From contig JAFRRN010000013.1 of assembly GCA_017428055.1 (NCBI GenBank), forward strand, positions 16,733 through 80,732: 64,000 bases of DNA, in the 5' to 3' direction. Below the pieces are notes generated by a model that saw nothing but the letters and a program-made list of their open reading frames with translations, ran no database searches and was not told the origin of the DNA. Positions 28,070 through 37,065 of this stretch are shown one piece after another. This DNA comes from Prevotella sp. GTDB taxonomy: Bacteria > Bacteroidota > Bacteroidia > Bacteroidales > Bacteroidaceae. A program made the position numbers and the translations under genes. How positions within the stretch are numbered: the first letter of the stretch is position 1; every line of letters starts with the position of its first letter.

Positions 28070-29734
28070 ATGAAACGGGTCTTGGCCATCATTTCCGTCT
28101 TGCTCGCCCTCGCATCATGCTCCCACGATAAGGGGGCGATGCGGGAGCGGATGGACTACGTGAGCCAGTGCAACCGCGCCGATACGGTGTTCACCGAGGC
28201 GTGGCTACCCACGGTGGACTCACTGGTTCGCTTCTTCGACCGCCACGGCAACGCCAACGAGCGGATGATGGCACACTACCTCCAAGGGCGCGTACACCAC
28301 GACATGGGCGAGGCGCCGATAGCCCTCGAATGCTACCAGAAGGCAACGGAAGTGGCGGACACCACCCGCAAGGATTGCGACCTCCACACCCTCGCCGCCA
28401 TATACGGGCAGATGGCAGACCTCTTTGACTTACAATTTTTACCTGAAGACGGAATGAATGCCCAATTGAAGGCAGAGCATTTTTTCTTAAAAGACAATGA
28501 TACCCTTTCCGCCATCAAGGCATACGAGTTGAGAATTAAACCTTATTTTCTCATGGGCGAAATTGACAGCATGATTCTTATCATGAATAATGCACGGGAT
28601 AATTTCCTACATTTCGGTGATACGGCGAAAGCTGCAGTGGCAATTTATCCCATGATAAGCATCTCCCTTGACCGCAACCAACTGGATGAGGCGAAACATT
28701 ATCTTGACATTTACGAAAACGAGTCAAATAACTTCGATGAAAACGGAAATCTCATATTCGGGGGACATTACTATTGTGACAAGGGTAGGTATTTGTTGTG
28801 TGAAGGAAAGGTCGATTCGGCAAGGAATTACTTTTTCAAGGCGATTGAACGTGGTGTTTATGAGGGGGGATATAAAGGGCTGTTGTCTGTCTATAAGGAA
28901 AAACAGATTCCAGACTCCATCGTCAAATATGCTGAACTCTTTGCCAAAGCCAACGACTCTTCATACTTGCATGTCAACCAGGAAAGAGTCCACCAAGTCA
29001 GTGCCATGTACAATTATTCCCGCAACGAGAAAGTAGCAAGACAGAAGGAGAAGCAGGCATCTGACTTGTGGCATTTCATCATCTTCATGGTGTTGTCTGT
29101 AATGGCAATCCTATTTTTCTTGGCATACTTGTTTTACCGTTATCGAGAAAAGCTATTCACACAGCTAAATCGTCTGAAAGACAGGAAAGATGCCCTGGAG
29201 GAAATCGTTCGGGAAAAGGAACGGGAGATAAAGCTTGTCTTGGAACACAGGGAATCCTATATTGATAAAAACATATTGGAGAAACAAACCACCATTGACT
29301 CCGTCAACAAGGAACTGGAAAAATTGAAACAACAAATTGCCACGCTCCAAAGTAAGGCGGAAAGATTCCAACATGACAAATTGGAGGACGATTTTTATTC
29401 CATAGGGTTCATAGAGGAGTTTGAAGCCAGATTCAAGGAATATGGAAAAGACTATAAACCTCCAACGACAAGGGAATGGTTACGACTTGAAAAGGTATTC
29501 TCCATCCATTTTCCCACCTATTACCAAAAGATTACCTGCAAGGACGAAATCACCAAGGAACATGTCCGTATCTGTATGCTCATCAGGATGGATTTCAAGG
29601 AGAGGATGATGGCAATAGCCTTGAAGACCGATGGCAAGCGCATAGACCGCTCTAAGCGTCAGGCGAACAGAATCCTTTTCGGCGAGGATAATGCTAGTAC
29701 CCTTAAAAGCAACCTAAAGCGGTTTTTTCAATAA
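28070..29734 (+). CDS. Membrane TPR regulator with C-terminal HTH-like domain
   Basis: A 554-residue one-component regulator candidate. It starts with a lipoprotein-like signal (MKRVLAIISVLLALASC), followed by a TPR-like helical sensor region of about 320 residues. Then come a transmembrane helix (FIIFMVLSVMAILFFLAYLF), a coiled coil (VNKELEKLKQQIATLQSK) and a C-terminal DNA-binding-like domain (REWLRLEKVFSIHFPTYY, ITKEHVRICMLIRM, then RSKRQANRILFGED). This layout, with periplasmic TPRs and a cytoplasmic HTH, is known from Bacteroidota carbohydrate and stress regulators. A coupled ATG at 28028 is an alternative start. The C-terminal domain is clearly homologous to the protein at 32689-33153. 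Direct repeats just after the stop are its likely binding site. Confidence 0.85.
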   Translation: MKRVLAIISVLLALASCSHDKGAMRERMDYVSQCNRADTVFTEAWLPTVDSLVRFFDRHGNANERMMAHYLQGRVHHDMGEAPIALECYQKATEVADTTRKDCDLHTLAAIYGQMADLFDLQFLPEDGMNAQLKAEHFFLKDNDTLSAIKAYELRIKPYFLMGEIDSMILIMNNARDNFLHFGDTAKAAVAIYPMISISLDRNQLDEAKHYLDIYENESNNFDENGNLIFGGHYYCDKGRYLLCEGKVDSARNYFFKAIERGVYEGGYKGLLSVYKEKQIPDSIVKYAELFAKANDSSYLHVNQERVHQVSAMYNYSRNEKVARQKEKQASDLWHFIIFMVLSVMAILFFLAYLFYRYREKLFTQLNRLKDRKDALEEIVREKEREIKLVLEHRESYIDKNILEKQTTIDSVNKELEKLKQQIATLQSKAERFQHDKLEDDFYSIGFIEEFEARFKEYGKDYKPPTTREWLRLEKVFSIHFPTYYQKITCKDEITKEHVRICMLIRMDFKERMMAIALKTDGKRIDRSKRQANRILFGEDNASTLKSNLKRFFQ

Positions 29735-29745
29735 AAGATAGGGGT

Positions 29746-29836
29746 TGCAGATAAATGTAGATTATTTCTGCAAGTCAAAGATTAACAAATACTTACAAAC
29801 ATAAATTACCGCAAGGTGTAGATAAATGTAGATTTT
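29746..29836. promoter_or_regulatory. Paired TGYAGRTAAA direct repeats, candidate operator
   Basis: Two 20-bp sites 71 bp apart. Each is two tandem 10-bp units: 29746-29755/29756-29765 and 29817-29826/29827-29836 (TGTAGATAAA then TGTAGATTTT in the second). The units are one helical turn apart. The last unit starts 49 bp upstream of the TATATTTG box at 29876. The same motif recurs at 33149-33181. Confidence 0.6.
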
Positions 29837-29875
29837 TTCTGTTTGCAAAATTCGTCGCAAATCCTTTTTGTATGA

Positions 29876-29883
29876 TATATTTG
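29876..29883 (+). promoter_or_regulatory. TAnnTTTG promoter box of the DUF3244 gene
   Basis: TATATTTG, 29 bp before the ATG at 29913. There is no TTTG at the usual -33 spacing, as expected if an activator is needed. Confidence 0.5.
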
Positions 29884-29912
29884 CAAGCACAATAACATTT
29901 AACAAAAAAAGC

Positions 29913-30290
29913 ATGAAAAAACATCAAATCACTTTCATTACCCTTGCATGTGTGTGTTTGGCATTTGCGTTGCCTCAAATCGCAAAGTCAGACACCAATC
30001 CTATTTGCTTACAGGCTTCCATTTACAACCCTACAGGCCAAAATGGCGGGAATCCTAAATCTCCTATCCTCATTCCCTCCGTCTCTCTCGACGACCACAC
30101 ATTGTACTTCGACACCCCCTGCGACGGCTGTACATTGAATATCGTGGATGGTAACAACATTGTGGTCTACACGTTGGTAATCCCTACGGGTACTACCTCG
30201 TTGGTGCTTCCCGCAACCCTCTCTGGCGAGTACGAGCTGCAAATCATTCGTGGCAACTACCTCTTCTACGGCACGATCGACTTGCCGTAA
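29913..30290 (+). CDS. Secreted DUF3244 protein
   Basis: A 125-residue exported protein. The ATG at 29913 yields a signal peptide (MKKHQITFITLACVCLAFALP). The open frame to 29868 lies in the promoter. The mature part is a single beta-sandwich-like domain: SPILIPSVSLDDHTLYFDTPCDGCTLNIVD and, at the end, SGEYELQIIRGNYLFYGTIDL. This matches DUF3244, small proteins that recur near TPR regulators in Prevotella and Bacteroides. The two cysteines may form a disulfide. Role unknown. Probably controlled by the upstream regulator through the repeats at 29746-29836. Confidence 0.82.
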   Translation: MKKHQITFITLACVCLAFALPQIAKSDTNPICLQASIYNPTGQNGGNPKSPILIPSVSLDDHTLYFDTPCDGCTLNIVDGNNIVVYTLVIPTGTTSLVLPATLSGEYELQIIRGNYLFYGTIDLP

Positions 30291-30311
30291 CTACTTACAG
30301 ACATATTATTA

Positions 30312-30352
30312 AAATGTCCCGGCGGGAGCGTGCCGACATTTATGTTCATGTC
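30312..30352 (+). terminator. Two mutually exclusive hairpins behind the DUF3244 gene
   Basis: Strand GCCGACATT (30332-30340) can pair upstream with AATGTC-C-CGGC (30313-30322, one bulge) or downstream with ATGTCGG (30348-30354 region; perfect CCGACAT/ATGTCGG, 8-nt loop). No T-run follows. It could be a terminator/antiterminator or a processing site between this gene and the beta-helix gene 70 bp downstream. Confidence 0.45.
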
Positions 30353-30422
30353 GGACAATAGTCGGCCCCCACTTGAAAACCTAACAATAATCACAAAACC
30401 TACCATTTAAACATTTACAACT

Positions 30423-32699
30423 ATGCCTAATTCCATTTTATTTACTGACAATTATCGCCAAGCGAACTCTTTTCTGAAGGAAATATATATCGGTGCTAAA
30501 TGGGCAGATCTTGCCTCTGGCGACGAGATGGTGCTTTGGCAAGCCAACAACAACGTACCCCAAGCAGACTACCTTATCGGTATTGGGTTGAGAAGCACTT
30601 TTGATCCCGTGGAAGGAGTCAAAGACGGTTTCCTGATAGCACATAACGGTTCTTCGGAACCCATCAAGATGGATACCTTTGGAATCTTCAAGGGGGTGGA
30701 TTGCTATGTGGTGGTTGACTGGGAGACCCCTTGGACGCTTCCCGTGAGCCAGACTGGTCAGGTAAACGGTGTGATATGCTTTGGTGCTGTGGTCAACATG
30801 AATCTCGCCGCCGACATCAATAATTCTCCCACCATCAAGAAATATGTCTACAATCAGGCTTTGGCTAACGTCGCTTCCATCCCTATTCCCTCCTATGATT
30901 TCAGGAGGATAAGGCCTACATCGCCGAGCGTAACGAGTACAACGGTCAATGCAAGTACCAAGATAGAATTAATTAATGCCATCAAGAACAACAACAATGT
31001 CACCATAAACCTGCTATCGGACATTGCCTTGTCAAGGGACGAATCGGCAACTGGCAGCCTGACAACGCAAAGGGCCAACGGTGCGAGCCTTGATACGCTC
31101 ATCAACATCAACAACAAGAACCTCATCATCGATGGAGGAACCAACAAATACAGTATTTACGAATATGAGAAAAGCGACGAGATTCTGACCACATTGGACA
31201 ATGGTTGGTATAGTGCCAACTATGGTGAGGATAACGTCACGGGGGAGGAGGCTTTCATGACAGAAGACGGTACCATCCTTACGTTAGCGAAAAGTGGCAT
31301 GTACAGGGCTGGCGGTTGGATCACATTCGGCAATAACTCAAACAGATATGGTCTTACCTTGCCTCCCAATCTTGTCAATCTTTACAACATTGATATGGAC
31401 AATGTTTTTATCTGTTATAGGCTATCCTACCACCGATACATGAAAAAAATAGTAGAGGCACATCAAGGAATTGTCATCTTTGAGGTTACCGACAATAATG
31501 ATGATACAAGCAATGCATATTTTCGCAACACATTGACACCCCAGCCGGACTTTTTCCTTGTAAACTATGCAGGCGATGGCAATGGCATTCTTATCAAGGA
31601 CGGTAAGCTGTCCTATCCTGCCAGTTTTGGCGTTAATAAGATTAGCCCCTGTTGGGCAGAACACCTGTTCCGCATCAAGGAGAACGCGCATGTGGAATTT
31701 CGGAATGTGTCATTCGTTGGTGGTACTGACCATACATTGAGAAACGATGGTCAATTAAATGTGGCTGGTTGTGATTTCACGAATTGCATCGCTGGCGGCA
31801 TCTATAATTTAAGAGAGTTGTTTGTCGATCAGTGCTTATTTATGGACATGATGACCACCGCCGTCCGCTTTGACCATATACACGGTACGTATTCCATTGC
31901 CCCATATATGGAAGTGACCAACTGCACATTCAGGAATATTGGTCATTATGCTTCTGATGTGTTCGCTATAAAGAACAACGGTAAGGCATATATTGCCAAC
32001 AATGAGTTTATCGACACCAACTATGGAGCAGTATATACGGGTGTCTGCAATTGCGACCATGAGGATAAACTGCATAGCGAGTGCTTAGTGGAACGTAACT
32101 ACGTCCACTATACCTCGGAATGGATAGAAAGGCGGAAGACGATGGGGTTGCAGGACTCTGGTGACATCTATATCTCCACGAACAACAAAAAGGCAATTAT
32201 CCGCTTCAACAGGATAGTCGGAACGGGTGGGATAGGTGGAACAAGCCCATATAGGAAGAACAACGCTATCTACGGGGACGATGGGGCGTATAATATGGAG
32301 ATATTTTGCAATGTCATCTCTGACGTTGAAAACTTTTATGACATCGATTGTAGGGATGTCAGCAATCATGTCATAAGGACCATTCCAGGCAACAAGCATG
32401 TAAATACCTGCAACTTTATCCAATATAACGTATGTAACGGCTATGTCAGGATTCAGGAGAATTCCCATGATGAGATAAGCAACGAGGAAAAGTGTAAGTT
32501 TGTCGACAATTTCATATTAGAGAAAACAGAGAATCCTGGGATTCTAAGTTGTGTGCCATCTGGTAACATTTACAATGAAGTAGTATATTGTAAAGACAGT
32601 GATGGCATCATGGCCGATGGCACTGGGATAGTTGCGGCGGCAACATTGGTTAAGGTAATGGGTGACTTAATCCATGTCAAATACGTTGATGAAGAGTAA
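30423..32699 (+). CDS. Right-handed parallel beta-helix protein without signal peptide
   Basis: A 758-residue protein. Residues 1-180 form a beta-rich N-terminal module (GDEMVLWQANNNVPQADYLI; FGIFKGVDCYVVVDWETPW). The rest shows the short-strand pattern of a parallel beta-helix (VEFRNVSFVGGTDHTLRN, LNVAGCDFTNCIAGGIYN, AYIANNEFIDTNYGAVYT, AIIRFNRIVGTGG), as in pectate-lyase-like or adhesin folds. No export signal is visible: the N-terminus is MPNSILFTDNY. No recognisable promoter lies in the 130 bp upstream, so it may be read from the DUF3244 promoter. Residues 582-758 have a truncated homologue at 34901-35431. Role unknown; adhesin or polysaccharide lyase are possible. Confidence 0.8.
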   Translation: MPNSILFTDNYRQANSFLKEIYIGAKWADLASGDEMVLWQANNNVPQADYLIGIGLRSTFDPVEGVKDGFLIAHNGSSEPIKMDTFGIFKGVDCYVVVDWETPWTLPVSQTGQVNGVICFGAVVNMNLAADINNSPTIKKYVYNQALANVASIPIPSYDFRRIRPTSPSVTSTTVNASTKIELINAIKNNNNVTINLLSDIALSRDESATGSLTTQRANGASLDTLININNKNLIIDGGTNKYSIYEYEKSDEILTTLDNGWYSANYGEDNVTGEEAFMTEDGTILTLAKSGMYRAGGWITFGNNSNRYGLTLPPNLVNLYNIDMDNVFICYRLSYHRYMKKIVEAHQGIVIFEVTDNNDDTSNAYFRNTLTPQPDFFLVNYAGDGNGILIKDGKLSYPASFGVNKISPCWAEHLFRIKENAHVEFRNVSFVGGTDHTLRNDGQLNVAGCDFTNCIAGGIYNLRELFVDQCLFMDMMTTAVRFDHIHGTYSIAPYMEVTNCTFRNIGHYASDVFAIKNNGKAYIANNEFIDTNYGAVYTGVCNCDHEDKLHSECLVERNYVHYTSEWIERRKTMGLQDSGDIYISTNNKKAIIRFNRIVGTGGIGGTSPYRKNNAIYGDDGAYNMEIFCNVISDVENFYDIDCRDVSNHVIRTIPGNKHVNTCNFIQYNVCNGYVRIQENSHDEISNEEKCKFVDNFILEKTENPGILSCVPSGNIYNEVVYCKDSDGIMADGTGIVAAATLVKVMGDLIHVKYVDEE

Positions 32700-33153
32700 T
32701 TTGGACAATGCGATTAGTGTCTTGGCAAAGTTGCGCCAATGTGCCGAGACGATGCTTTCGTTGGTAGGGCAACTTCAAGCATCAATCGGCGTCAGAGATG
32801 CCAAAAGGCAGGAGGAGCTGTTCGGGAGTGATGTCTATGCCCGCTTCCATGCCTTCACAAGCGATGGGCATCATGCCGAGCCACCGTCAGACGGCGAGTG
32901 GCGTGAATTGGAAAGTCTGTTCCGTGCCGCTTTTCCAAGGTTATATCAATTGGTTGCCATTGACCATGACCTGACACGTGACCAGTTGCGCCTCTGCTTG
33001 CTGGTTGGCCTATCTTTTCGCCACCATGTGATTATGCGGGTGATGGATGTTGACAGCAACAGGGTGTCCCGTTTGAAGTCGCAAGCCAACAAGAGGTTGT
33101 TTGGCGATAAGTTGGCGAGTACGTTGGCAGTCCGTCTTAAAGATTATGTGTAG
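32689..33153 (+). CDS. Sensor-less copy of the TPR regulator's C-terminal HTH-like domain
   Basis: A 154-residue soluble protein. Its last 90 residues align closely with the C-terminus of the membrane regulator at 28070-29734. Shared landmarks are EW..LE..F...FP..Y, then LT....R.C.L, then K.QAN..LFG...ASTL...L. The N-terminal 60 residues are a helical segment comparable to the coiled coil that precedes this domain in the large regulator. TPRs and membrane helix are absent. It overlaps the 3' end of the beta-helix gene by 11 bp (an ATG at 32674 would overlap by 26). Phased TGTAGG repeats begin at its stop codon. Likely a DNA-binding protein acting on that site. Confidence 0.75.
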   Translation: MKSNLDNAISVLAKLRQCAETMLSLVGQLQASIGVRDAKRQEELFGSDVYARFHAFTSDGHHAEPPSDGEWRELESLFRAAFPRLYQLVAIDHDLTRDQLRLCLLVGLSFRHHVIMRVMDVDSNRVSRLKSQANKRLFGDKLASTLAVRLKDYV

Positions 33154-33181
33154 GTATAGGTGTAGGCAAAATGTAGGTAAA
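33149..33181. promoter_or_regulatory. Three phased TGTAGGYAWA direct repeats, candidate operator
   Basis: Units at 33149-33158 (TGTAGGTATA), 33161-33170 (TGTAGGCAAA) and 33172-33181 (TGTAGGTAAA), 11-12 bp apart. The last unit starts 48 bp upstream of the TATATTTG box at 33220, the same distance as at the 29.8-kb operator. Confidence 0.65.
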
Positions 33182-33196
33182 TTTTGCATCTATTAT

Positions 33197-33227
33197 TTTG
33201 AAGATAAATGGAATCATGTTATATTTG
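33197..33227 (+). promoter_or_regulatory. Consensus promoter of the first LRR gene
   Basis: TTTG at 33197-33200 and TATATTTG at 33220-33227, spaced 19 bp. The leader to the ATG at 33294 is about 60 nt. Confidence 0.7.
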
Positions 33228-33293: not shown

Positions 33294-34856
33294 ATGAAAA
33301 CGTACGACAATGACAAAAAGAAAAAGGGTGGACATGTTCTCAAATCCATGTTTGCCGTATGCGCTTTCCTGTCCATGAGCTGTAATGTGGCTTGGGCGGA
33401 AGTTTGGGAGTATCGCATCATGGGGCATGTTTATGAATTTAACGATGACACCAAGACGGGACGATTGTTAAGCATTGAAGACAAGTCCTTAATAAACACA
33501 TTCGTTATCGAAAGCATAACACATGTAGAGCATCCTAATGGGGCTTATTATGTGACGGGTATTGCTGACGACTGTTTTGTGGGCTGCGACAAGTTGGAAG
33601 AAGTTTCCATCCCTGAAAGCGTCTTGACATTGGGCGACAGATGCTTTGCTGGATGTTCGAGCTTGAAGTCAATCTCTCTTCACAAGAGCTTCGAGAAATT
33701 AGGGAAAGAATGCTTCAAGGGCTGTTCCTCGCTAAGCTCCGTCGAAATTAAGTCGGAGAAGATGGAGGGGCTGCCCGAGGGCTGCTTCAATGGTTGCACA
33801 AGCTTGCGCCAGATGATTATCCGCATGAAGACCCCACCCGTGGCGGTTCTCTCGGAGTCGGGGCTTGACCAGTTCGCTGGTGCGGGTCTCATGACATCCC
33901 TGTATGTTCCCAAGGAGTCAGCCGATGCCTATAAGGAGTCAAGCCTGTGGAGTCAGTGGGAGACCATCATCCCTACGGACTTTGCGGCGATGGATAATTA
34001 CGAGACGAAAGCACTCAAGAAGTTGGGGGATGGCAGGTTTGTCGAAAACAACGCCGAACATGGTAACTCCCACTATTATTCCTTAGACCATGAAAACTTG
34101 GCGGCAACGTTCTTGAACGCCCGACCTAACCAAACGGGCAAAGGTGAATGGTACGAGTACTTACATCAAGTGACGATACCGGAGTTTGTCCTATATGACC
34201 ATAAGGTATACACCGTATCCGCCATGGGAGACGGGTGCTTTAGGGATTGCTGGTACCTGAATGAGGTCAACATTCCCATGACGGTCAAGGAATTGGGAAG
34301 AGGCTGTTTCACCTTCAGTATGCCCTCGGCATCCCTCGTCTTGCCAGAGGGAGTGGCGACACTTGGGGCAGGGTGCTTTCAGGAGACTTACATATCGAAG
34401 ATAGACTTGCCGGCATCACTGGCATTCCTTGGAAGCCGTTGCTTTGCCGAAAGTTCGCAGTTGACGAGTGTCATCCTGCGGTCGGGCGACCTGTCTACCA
34501 TCAGTTTGGGCTGCTTTGAGTCGTGTTACCAGTTATCGGAATTGGTCTGTTATGCCAACGAGGTACCCAAGCTTGAATACGACGGCGACAACAGCCCGTT
34601 CTATGGCACCAAGGCAAGTGAGGGGAAGCTCTACGTTCAGAAGGACTTGGTGGAGGCATACAAGGCAACGCCCGGATGGAACGAGTGGAAGGAAATCCTG
34701 CCCATCGATGCCTATGGCTCTGTCAACGGCATTGAGAATGTGAAAGACGGCAAGGCGGTGGACGCTGCCATCTATGACCTGCAAGGTCGCAAGGTGCAGA
34801 CTCCCCAGCGCAGTGGGCTGTACATCCAAGGCGGCAGGAAATTCATCTATCGGTAA
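33294..34856 (+). CDS. Secreted BspA-like leucine-rich-repeat protein, copy 1
   Basis: A 520-residue surface-protein candidate. The signal peptide ends near AWA|EVW (residues about 18-36). Two blocks of LRR_5 (BspA/TpLRR) repeats of about 23 residues follow, each with a Cys-Phe pair: DDCFVGCDKLEEVSIPESV, DRCFAGCSSLKSISLHKSF, KECFKGCSSLSSVEIKSEK, EGCFNGCTSLRQMIIRMK, and a second set after residue 300. The C-terminus GIENVKDGKAVDAAIYDLQG...GLYIQGGRKFIYR is the short sorting-like tail common in secreted Prevotella proteins. BspA relatives bind host matrix or other bacteria; that role is inferred. Its final 316 coding bases and 44 following bases are nearly identical to those of copy 2. Confidence 0.88.
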   Translation: MKTYDNDKKKKGGHVLKSMFAVCAFLSMSCNVAWAEVWEYRIMGHVYEFNDDTKTGRLLSIEDKSLINTFVIESITHVEHPNGAYYVTGIADDCFVGCDKLEEVSIPESVLTLGDRCFAGCSSLKSISLHKSFEKLGKECFKGCSSLSSVEIKSEKMEGLPEGCFNGCTSLRQMIIRMKTPPVAVLSESGLDQFAGAGLMTSLYVPKESADAYKESSLWSQWETIIPTDFAAMDNYETKALKKLGDGRFVENNAEHGNSHYYSLDHENLAATFLNARPNQTGKGEWYEYLHQVTIPEFVLYDHKVYTVSAMGDGCFRDCWYLNEVNIPMTVKELGRGCFTFSMPSASLVLPEGVATLGAGCFQETYISKIDLPASLAFLGSRCFAESSQLTSVILRSGDLSTISLGCFESCYQLSELVCYANEVPKLEYDGDNSPFYGTKASEGKLYVQKDLVEAYKATPGWNEWKEILPIDAYGSVNGIENVKDGKAVDAAIYDLQGRKVQTPQRSGLYIQGGRKFIYR

Positions 34857-35517: not shown

Positions 35518-37065
35518 ATGAAAACGTATATGAATTGCAATCCTAATTTGGGATATCAAACTTTTATGAGATATTGTGGCATAGTAGTTCTTCTTGCCAT
35601 TGGTGGAAACGTTGCGTGGTCAGAGACTTTAACGCTTGACAATATCGTATATGAGCTTAACGAAAAAACAAAGACGGCAGAAGTCATCAGGATTTGCGAC
35701 AAGGGTATGGTAGAAACCGAGATTTCTCAGGAGTTCACAATTTTTAGTGGGACTTACTTTGTGACAGGAATCGCACCTAAATGCTTCGAAGATTGCAAGA
35801 AGTTGGAAACAGTTTTTATTCCGCGATATACCAAGATAATTGGTGACGAATGCTTCAAAGGCTGCTCCTCCTTGAAGTCCGTGAAGATACCATCCGATGT
35901 GGAAAGGTTAGGAAAGTTATGCTTTGCGGATTGCTCCCAATTGTCAGAAGTGGTGATAGACACCGAGAAGTTGGAGGGCATCCCCGAGGGTTGCTTTTCT
36001 GGCTGTACCAACTTAAGCCAGATGACCATCCGCATGAATACCCCACCTGCAAGGGTTCTCTCGACCACTGGCCATGACCAGTTCGCAGGTGCTGGCCCCA
36101 TGAACTATTTGTATGTCCCGCAAGGGTGTGAGGATGCTTATAGGGAATCAGACTTGTGGAAGGGTTGGGAAAACATCCTCCCGTTTGACTTCGAGGCGAT
36201 GGACGAGTATGATAAAAAGAAGCTAGTAGACTTAGGGAATGGTAAATACTTCAGCCATGAGAATGGTTTTTCCTATTCCTTAGACCATGAGCGGCTCACT
36301 GCGACATTCTTGGGCTTGAACTCTACTTATTTTGTCCCTTCTGGGGGTAAGGTTGACAACCCCAATTCTTTTGTTGTGAAAGTGGATATTCCCGACTACG
36401 TCTTGTTTGGCCAAAAGTTGTATACCGTGACCCGTTTAGGTAATAACTGCCTGAGCGACTATATGAATTTGAGCAGCGTCAGGTATCCTTCCGCATTGAA
36501 GGAACTGGGCGATGGATGTTTCCAGTTTAGTGGTACTGCTTATGTCAATTTACCGGAGGGTGTTGAAAAACTTGGAGCTTATTGTTTTGGAAGTAGTGAT
36601 GTTTTTTATGTCGACCTTCCCTCCTCGTTGTCTACCATTGGCAAGGGTTGTTTTTCCAGTTGTAATTATTTGAGGAGGGTAATCATCCGTTCAGGTGACT
36701 TGAAAACAGTCAGCGAGAAGTGCTTTGCCAATAGTTGGCAATTGTCAGAGCTGGTGTGTTATGCCAACGAGATTCCCGAGCTTGAATACGACGGCGACAA
36801 GAGCCCGTTCTACATGACGAATGCCAAGGAGGGAAAGCTTTATGTGCAGAAAGACTTGGTGGAGGCATACAAGGCTACCCCAGGGTGGAACGAGTGGAAG
36901 GATATCCTGCCTATCGATGCCTACGGCTCTGCCAACGGCATTGAGAATGTGAAAGACGGCAAGGCGGTGGACGCTGCCATCTATGACCTACAAGGTCGCA
37001 AGGTGCAGACTCCCCAGCGCGGTGGGCTGTACATCCAAGGCGGCAGGAAATTCATCTATCGGTAA
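35518..37065 (+). CDS. Secreted BspA-like leucine-rich-repeat protein, copy 2
   Basis: A 515-residue paralogue of the protein at 33294-34856. The signal peptide ends near AWS|ETL. LRR_5 repeats again fall in two blocks (PKCFEDCKKLETVFIPRYT, DECFKGCSSLKSVKIPSDV, KLCFADCSQLSEVVIDTEK; later CFQFSGTAYVNLPEGVEKL and CFSSCNYLRRVIIRSGD). The N-terminal two thirds have diverged strongly from copy 1, but the last 105 residues differ at only about nine positions. It carries the same sorting-like tail (IYDLQGRKVQ...GLYIQGGRKFIYR). The 3' end converges with the HAD phosphatase gene, 24 bp apart. Surface exposure and adhesion are inferred. Confidence 0.88.
   Translation: MKTYMNCNPNLGYQTFMRYCGIVVLLAIGGNVAWSETLTLDNIVYELNEKTKTAEVIRICDKGMVETEISQEFTIFSGTYFVTGIAPKCFEDCKKLETVFIPRYTKIIGDECFKGCSSLKSVKIPSDVERLGKLCFADCSQLSEVVIDTEKLEGIPEGCFSGCTNLSQMTIRMNTPPARVLSTTGHDQFAGAGPMNYLYVPQGCEDAYRESDLWKGWENILPFDFEAMDEYDKKKLVDLGNGKYFSHENGFSYSLDHERLTATFLGLNSTYFVPSGGKVDNPNSFVVKVDIPDYVLFGQKLYTVTRLGNNCLSDYMNLSSVRYPSALKELGDGCFQFSGTAYVNLPEGVEKLGAYCFGSSDVFYVDLPSSLSTIGKGCFSSCNYLRRVIIRSGDLKTVSEKCFANSWQLSELVCYANEIPELEYDGDKSPFYMTNAKEGKLYVQKDLVEAYKATPGWNEWKDILPIDAYGSANGIENVKDGKAVDAAIYDLQGRKVQTPQRGGLYIQGGRKFIYR

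Follow-up and report, generated by a model that had tools for sequence, protein, structure and literature searches.

Locus-specific tandem repeats at a nearly constant position before the next promoter mark a family of predicted membrane regulators in Prevotella

Among the closest described systems are the SusR-like regulators of Bacteroides, whose predicted direct-repeat sites lie 67 or 77 base pairs (bp) apart, centre to centre, in the part of the published account drawn on here (PMC3878776). LytTR systems form a second group, in which diverged direct repeats of constant length and spacing recur at many loci just upstream of a local promoter, with Bacteroides examples standing before TATCTTTG in the sections used (PMC6193735). 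Also related are the transmembrane transcription regulators, described in one portion of a further study as one-component, membrane-bound DNA-binding proteins enriched in Bacteroidota (PMC10269533). Here we describe a 64,000-nucleotide stretch of Prevotella sp. DNA (contig JAFRRN010000013.1 of assembly GCA_017428055.1, positions 16,733 to 80,732; hereafter the window), in which a TPR regulator with a single transmembrane segment and a soluble regulator sharing its C-terminal helix-turn-helix (HTH) domain are each followed by tandem repeats that stand ahead of the promoter of the next gene. Among relatives of these regulators, the sequence of the repeat varies between loci while its geometry stays nearly constant.

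As with the SusR-like regulators in the sections cited, the TPR regulator is predicted to be a membrane protein with a periplasmic sensor and a cytoplasmic C-terminal HTH, its target genes would be adjacent, and motif similarity tracks regulator similarity. The comparison, made by description, also brings out differences from those sections. Each site here is a tandem pair of units 9-12 bp apart, with second pairs 54-57 or 71-72 bp away; the SusR spacing of 67/77 bp was not found, and the second pairs at 71-72 and 54-57 bp resemble it in kind only. Furthermore, the predicted sensor consists of TPR-like repeats, the cargo is DUF3244 and other secreted proteins rather than glycan uptake, and cores and arms appear to recombine. 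LytTR systems, as the same sections of PMC6193735 have it, carry a LytTR domain and 9-bp repeats 11-13 bp apart (a period of ~21 bp, versus 9-12 bp here), placed at the promoter of the regulator's own operon and accompanied by a separate membrane inhibitor, unlike the arrangement in the window; no LytTR domain occurs among the Pfam matches of the window proteins and their relatives. The portion of PMC10269533 on transmembrane regulators contains no private-operator pattern and no mention of TPR, LuxR, GerE or operator.

The two window loci comprise the following features.

28070..29734, + strand: TPR regulator with a single transmembrane segment, 554 amino acids (aa), from its open reading frame (ORF), Pfam, hydropathy and relatives
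28127..28369, + strand: conserved N-terminal arm (~aa 20-100), synonymous sites homogenised among own-genome copies
29384..29731, + strand: C-terminal DNA-binding domain, a predicted divergent LuxR/GerE-like HTH
29746..29761, + strand: distal candidate operator pair TGCAGATAAATGTAGA, 71 bp upstream of the proximal pair
29817..29832, + strand: proximal candidate operator pair TGTAGATAAATGTAGA, second unit 49 bp before the box
29876..29883, + strand: TATATTTG -7 box ahead of the DUF3244 gene
29913..30290, + strand: small secreted DUF3244-family protein, 125 aa, below the Pfam cut-off and assigned by an own-genome profile
30423..32699, + strand: 758-aa cargo protein, weakly matching a pectate-lyase-like adhesive domain
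32674..33153, + strand: soluble regulator, 159 aa, with the same C-terminal domain and without TPR or strong transmembrane segment
33149..33177, + strand: three TGTAGG units in steps of 12 and 11 bp, the last 48 bp before the box
33220..33227, + strand: TATATTTG -7 box ahead of the leucine-rich repeat (LRR) gene, with TTG 22 bp upstream
33294..34856, + strand: BspA-type LRR surface or secreted protein, 520 aa

The product of 28070-29734 has a lipoprotein-like N-terminus, TPR-like repeats, a hydrophobic segment, a charged helical stretch and a C-terminal HTH domain (~aa 440-554); by hydropathy and inspection, from which its topology is predicted, one strong hydrophobic segment (aa 337-355) accompanies the lipoprotein-like N-terminal signal. 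A preliminary description of this DNA had held that the two regulators share their C-terminal domain, and indeed both ORFs are present, with C-terminal domains that are 30% identical (E=4e-23, a single comparison over the aligned stretch). It had also set the last repeat 48-49 bp upstream of TATATTTG at both loci, in agreement with measured distances to the box start of 49 bp (box at 29876) and 48 bp (box at 33220). The direct repeats of TGTAGRTAAA that it placed after each stop codon need rewording: TG[TC]AGR units do stand in tandem, starting at 29746, 29756, 29817 and 29827 in the first locus and at 33149, 33161 and 33172 in the second, and the copy at 33149 overlaps the soluble regulator's stop codon. 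The exact decamer has a single match at each locus (29817, 33172) and none in the remainder of the 64 kb, both strands considered; what repeats is therefore TGTAGR (TGCAGA at 29746), followed by A/T-rich sequence. The secreted DUF3244 protein that it saw behind the first box scores below the Pfam cut-off (PF11589, 20.4 vs 25 bits) and is assigned through a profile built from five own-genome copies; DUF3244 is listed among iron-responsive B. thetaiotaomicron genes in an excerpt of published work. The weight of evidence for the regulator-repeat pattern lies with the relatives rather than with the window loci.

These relatives came mainly from two samples. The first set was 60 stretches hand-picked from the top of a genus profile list, with some near-contig-end matches skipped, and the held-out set was 60 hand-picked from the top of a broader-profile list, in genomes unused before, with at least two that had little downstream DNA skipped; since the lists rank by likeness to the query, both sets sample the near part of the family. 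Duplicates were removed by the last 60 residues (70, 59 and 9 kept), which gave 135 distinct regulators together, window included. A TAnnTTTG box lies downstream within 320 bp at 114 of the 135, and position counts are confined to these. The first set served to fix offsets and periods.

A strong tandem repeat was present at 69 of the 114 boxed loci, compared with 9, 4 and 9 in three local-shuffle runs. At 37 of the 114 the second unit lay 46-53 bp before the box with a lag of 10-11 bp, an arrangement found 1, 0 and 0 times in the shuffles, and a smaller class, with a lag of 9 bp, had its second unit around -42 to -38, closer to the box by roughly a helical turn. Locus-by-locus shuffling of the first set brought 22 of its 72 records to p 0.01 and 39 to p 0.05. 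With the geometry fixed, the two units agreed at 8 or more of 9 bases at 27 of 62 loci in the first set (2.0 expected from between-locus pairs) and at 17 of 48 in the held-out set (1.7 expected), and none of 10,000 pairings reached the mean within-locus agreement in either set. Promoters of the form TTG-N19..21-TAnnTTTG carried the repeat in 20 of 39 cases at regulators, as opposed to 7 of 101 at other places in those stretches and in the window (Fisher p=2e-8). The proposed regulator family, with phased repeats a nearly constant distance ahead of the -7 box of secreted-protein genes, thus recurs in held-out genomes.

Finer geometry came from 55 extracted operators, a collection that mixes the first and held-out sets. 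In 32 of these, a TTG precedes the box by exactly 23 bp, so that the boxes look like real Bacteroidota promoters, and the operator lies upstream of this -33 element. In 24 of the 55, a second copy of the proximal pair occurs in the same stretch, with 11 copies 71-72 bp upstream and five at 54-57 bp; at one locus (L035) the chosen pair is the upstream one and its partner lies 71 bp downstream. At a score of at least 0.55, a second pair was found at 15 of 53 loci, 10 of them at 55-58 or 70-73 bp, whereas five mismatched-locus controls gave 0 or 1. Copies of the pair outside their own intergenic region appeared only at L078 (weak, other strand), L039 and L130 (tandem regulators), in a search for autoregulatory copies that covered the regulator's upstream side in the first set.

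The repeat sequence, by comparison, is a property of the locus. TGTAGRTAAA, which the preliminary description had offered as the family motif, is rejected in that role: the motif varies with the locus and tracks the HTH, TGTAG appears in 7 of the 55 extracted operators, and TGTAGRTAAA marks one HTH subtype and not the whole family. Homologues without the motif downstream, which had been named in advance as counter-evidence, speak against the exact motif and leave the geometry standing. HTH identity correlated with operator similarity across the 55 operators (Mantel r=0.26, 0 of 2000 permutations), and continued to do so once the remainder of the C-terminal domain was partialled out (r=0.24, 0 of 2000); that remainder alone gave r=0.085 (p=0.03), and the promoter spacer segment, used as a control, r=0.13 (p=0.0075). 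An Arg at one recognition-helix position goes with TGTAG in 6 of 8 operators, versus 1 of 47 without Arg; in the two exceptions Asn precedes the Arg and the operator is GGTATA. Both window regulators have Arg at this position. The table is a lead and not a test, because the proteins are related. What the sequence statistics establish is the repeats, their position, their locus specificity and their link with the HTH.

The window's own genome (4.2 Mb, 106 contigs) provides sister loci. Six TPR regulators in it have a conserved N-terminal part that is 74-100% identical, with a seventh, weak match at 30%, and the tandem repeat between regulator and next gene differs in sequence from locus to locus: TGTAGATAAG at C97, GTGTAC at C29, GTGTAC/GTGTAT at C51, TGACGAA at C18 and TGATTTACT at the other end of C103. 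A genome search for motif pairs, as proposed earlier, was informative in its strict form only. The strict pair TGTAGRNNRNTGTAGR has 4 matches in the 4.2 Mb, 3 of them beside family regulators (two at C97, one in the window), and its backward-pattern control has 0. The looser TGTAGRN{4,6}TGTAGR matches 10 times, at regulator loci in 5 cases, against 27 matches for its backward control; the loose pair alone therefore shows nothing and was discarded as evidence. Its five non-regulator matches lie inside open frames of at least 421 codons (stop to stop), with no TAnnTTTG within 200 bases of the motif start. A TGACGAA pair, with one mismatch allowed, matches 4 times in the genome, twice at C18. A DUF3244 relative follows five of the six TPR regulators, and the contig ends at the sixth. 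DUF3244 is directly next at 38 of 72 first-set records; its adjacency was considered as a cause of the repeats and rejected, as a fixed-position repeat occurs at 16 of 36 boxed loci with DUF3244 and at 9 of 21 without (p=1.0). At C27 (59226-59339) a 38-residue DUF3244 fragment, 74% identical, sits in a 79-codon open frame near RHS-like frames and is perhaps a decayed cassette.

We propose, with a probability of roughly 0.8, that each of these proteins is a one-component membrane regulator whose private operator adjoins its own gene, in a geometry common to the family, and that it activates the promoter of the next operon. The exported TPR part would sense a signal or partner and be joined through a membrane segment and a helical linker to a divergent LuxR-like HTH that reads DNA from the membrane; the soluble version has no sensor part. 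The HTH would bind two half-sites head to tail, 9-12 bp apart (mostly 10-11 bp), the pair being centred ~55 bp upstream of the -7 box start of the next operon and a second pair often lying 54-57 or 71-72 bp further upstream, and the bound regulator would then activate that operon's promoter. The half-site sequence would be private to the regulator subtype and follow the recognition helix, with the geometry held in common. Topology, binding, activation rather than repression, and the signal are what we infer in this scheme. Sites upstream of the -33 element are in the usual position for activators, and the location of the repeats suggests activation.

Several observations weigh against this proposal. 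The first window locus, taken as an unspecified tandem repeat, reached only p=0.168 in 100 dinucleotide shuffles (the second gave p=0.04), and it scores below the extraction threshold and hence falls outside the 55-operator set. Boxes are missing within 320 bp at 21 of the 135 regulators, a strong repeat is lacking at 45 of the 114 boxed loci, and the repeat is present at 7 of 101 control promoters. One unit at the TGACGAA locus, together with several classes at lag 9 and offset -42..-38, needs a second geometry. Finally, part of the HTH-operator correlation may reflect common descent, since the spacer control is positive and related loci are not independent.

Three other explanations were weighed. 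The operators could be real and the regulator a repressor, or the repeats could work at the RNA level, in the 3' end of the regulator's transcript; they do start at or just after the stop codon and would be transcribed if the regulator's mRNA reads through. We nevertheless regard this as unlikely, given the activator-type position upstream of the -33 TTG, a point of general knowledge, and given that direct repeats lacking a paired inverted arm form no obvious RNA element. It is quite improbable, in turn, that the repeats are sites of a factor other than the adjacent TPR protein, for instance an unlinked regulator or the soluble one (32674-33153) serving both window promoters. Cross-talk within the window is plausible, as both regulators there combine TGTAGR units with Arg at the same recognition position, but the motif changes from locus to locus and tracks the adjacent gene's HTH, and soluble regulators occur at few loci whereas repeats occur at many TPR loci with none in the fetched vicinity; one shared factor cannot explain so many different motifs. 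Very improbable, and already disfavoured, is a reading of the repeats as a promoter or UP-like element common to these bacteria, or as something that A/T-rich tandem duplication leaves behind: the unit tails are A/T-rich and a few other promoters score as high, but the excess at regulator promoters, within-locus agreement far above between-locus agreement, an HTH correlation exceeding that of the spacer and the fixed spacing of second pairs all stand against it.

The C-terminal domain is, by profile comparison, probably a divergent LuxR-like HTH. It aligned with TPR, transmembrane and LuxR-like relatives at the level of the order with 99.0% probability (hhalign, E=5.5e-18), and the fetched tails of those relatives match GerE at E<=0.01 in 7 of 10 cases and above the cut-off in 4 of 10. 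Unlike typical LuxR/GerE-type HTHs, members of the subfamily rarely match GerE themselves (2 of 38 at E<=0.1, the window domain not among them). The window regulator is below the cut-off for DUF6377 (PF19904; 19.9 vs 36.7 bits, aa 302-428 only), to which 2 of 15 full-length relatives match at E<=0.01, and below every Pfam cut-off for TPR (best TPR_2, 23.5 vs 27 bits), with TPR_12 found in 11 of 15 relatives at E<=0.01. NCBIfam gave nothing near cut-off for either window regulator, and a search of the PDB by sequence gave best matches of E=0.029 for DUF3244 and E=0.009 to 0.9 for the C-terminal domain, with none for the whole regulator. No prior account of DUF6377 or of such regulators and operators was found in one open full-text library, a scope outside which most subscription papers fall.

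The family is widespread in the genus, with profile matches at E<=1e-6 in 103 of 150 genomes and, for a broader profile at E<=1e-14, in 250 of 398; across the order, 24 of 295 genomes match at E<=1e-12, the window's own included. Named records with a DUF3244 neighbour (17 loci) are Prevotella sp. or uncultured Prevotellaceae, and the source of several is the rumen, omasum or abomasum. Of 27 loci from beyond the genus, 19 have the box, and for 6 of the 19 the repeat scores 11 or more when a wider range of positions is allowed, an uncontrolled count. Tandem repeats before the box, likewise uncontrolled, are seen at L219, L231, L211, L214 and L236 in other families of the order, and the pattern may reach beyond Prevotella. 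At L130 (G145:C11), three tandem regulators are each followed by the same TTTTGTTACATTTTGTTACA repeat; DUF3244 was not detected there.

Comparison of sister loci points to recombination. At fourfold third positions, the six own-genome copies are 79% identical in the N-terminal arm, 22-32% in columns 160-360 and 17-47% beyond (few sites); DUF3244 shows 22-24% in its first 50 columns and 48, 66 and 75% further on. Synonymous identity of the arm is 0.76 within the own genome and 0.82 within genome G127, as against 0.50 between them, and averages 0.42 over between-genome pairs with at least 60% aa identity (n=75). The DUF3244 arm shows only a weak contrast of this sort (0.67 and 0.61 within, 0.55 between). 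The DNA-binding domain, conversely, is closest between species (window regulator vs G127:C29, 75% aa), with synonymous sites saturated. Among other genomes, single pairs from G081 (0.80) and G094 (0.84) give a clear arm signal; it is unclear in G140 (0.47) and G072 (0.55) and absent from G128 and G108, and the G116 pair is a recent duplicate throughout. At L079 of G127 the arm protein is similar, yet synonymous identity is 0.41-0.58 in the pairs shown.

Cargo and cores have also changed partners. The window's cargo order recurs at G127:C7 (758-aa protein 45%, soluble regulator 49%, LRR protein 41%), where the core is 44.5% identical to the C29 core, 24% identical to the window core, and has a GTGTAC operator; in G127 the core that corresponds to the window's (63%) carries TGTAGATAAATGTAGA and is followed by a subtilase-like gene. 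Judged from these alignments, in the own genome and G127 the first TPRs are homogenised at synonymous sites, the HTH-operator-promoter core is not, and cores and cargo are reassorted. The reassortment in G127 fits an exchange of cores among loci; gene conversion confined to the arms would account for the synonymous signal and leave the reassortment unexplained. It may be that HTH and operator move jointly. We tentatively consider, at somewhat short of even odds, that the loci are constant-arm, variable-core cassettes in which recombination in the arms (the first TPRs and the C-terminal half of DUF3244) swaps the whole core, with the sensor remainder, HTH, operator and promoter passing as a single unit. 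Because the HTH is C-terminal and the operator lies within ~150 bp of the stop codon, a core swap would replace specificity and site at once, and one genome could then hold several mutually insulated channels, reattached to new secreted cargo; natural HTH-operator pairs would in that case be a ready-made recognition code.

Should the regulator-operator pairing be correct, dozens of natural pairs in one geometry would make a membrane LuxR-like recognition code readable and testable, and would offer orthogonal promoter-regulator pairs for Bacteroidota genetics. Duplicated regulators would avoid cross-talk through a DNA-binding domain and site that are adjacent and travel together. Control of secreted peptidases (C25, S8) and of proteins with type IX secretion system (T9SS) tails and LRRs in Prevotella, to which the literature consulted assigns no regulator, is likewise predicted. 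In the own genome, the cargo includes C25 peptidases at C97 and C29, RHS at C18 and a subtilase (with a below-cut-off M43 match) at C51. At 33 of 34 loci, with L079 left out, the gene after DUF3244 encodes a T9SS sorting tail in 10 cases, an S74 endosialidase chaperone in 4, radical SAM in 4, a thermolysin-type M4 peptidase in 1 and RHS in 1; a 4Fe-4S match occurs in as many loci as the radical SAM genes next to DUF3244 (4 of 33). At L079 (G127:C22), a DUF3244-like leader runs into a 441-aa frame in place of the usual C-terminal half, and its hidden Markov model match is weak (2e-12). In the window, two BspA-type LRR genes are neighbours (33294-34856 and 35518-37065), and TGTAGR repeats stand before the first only.

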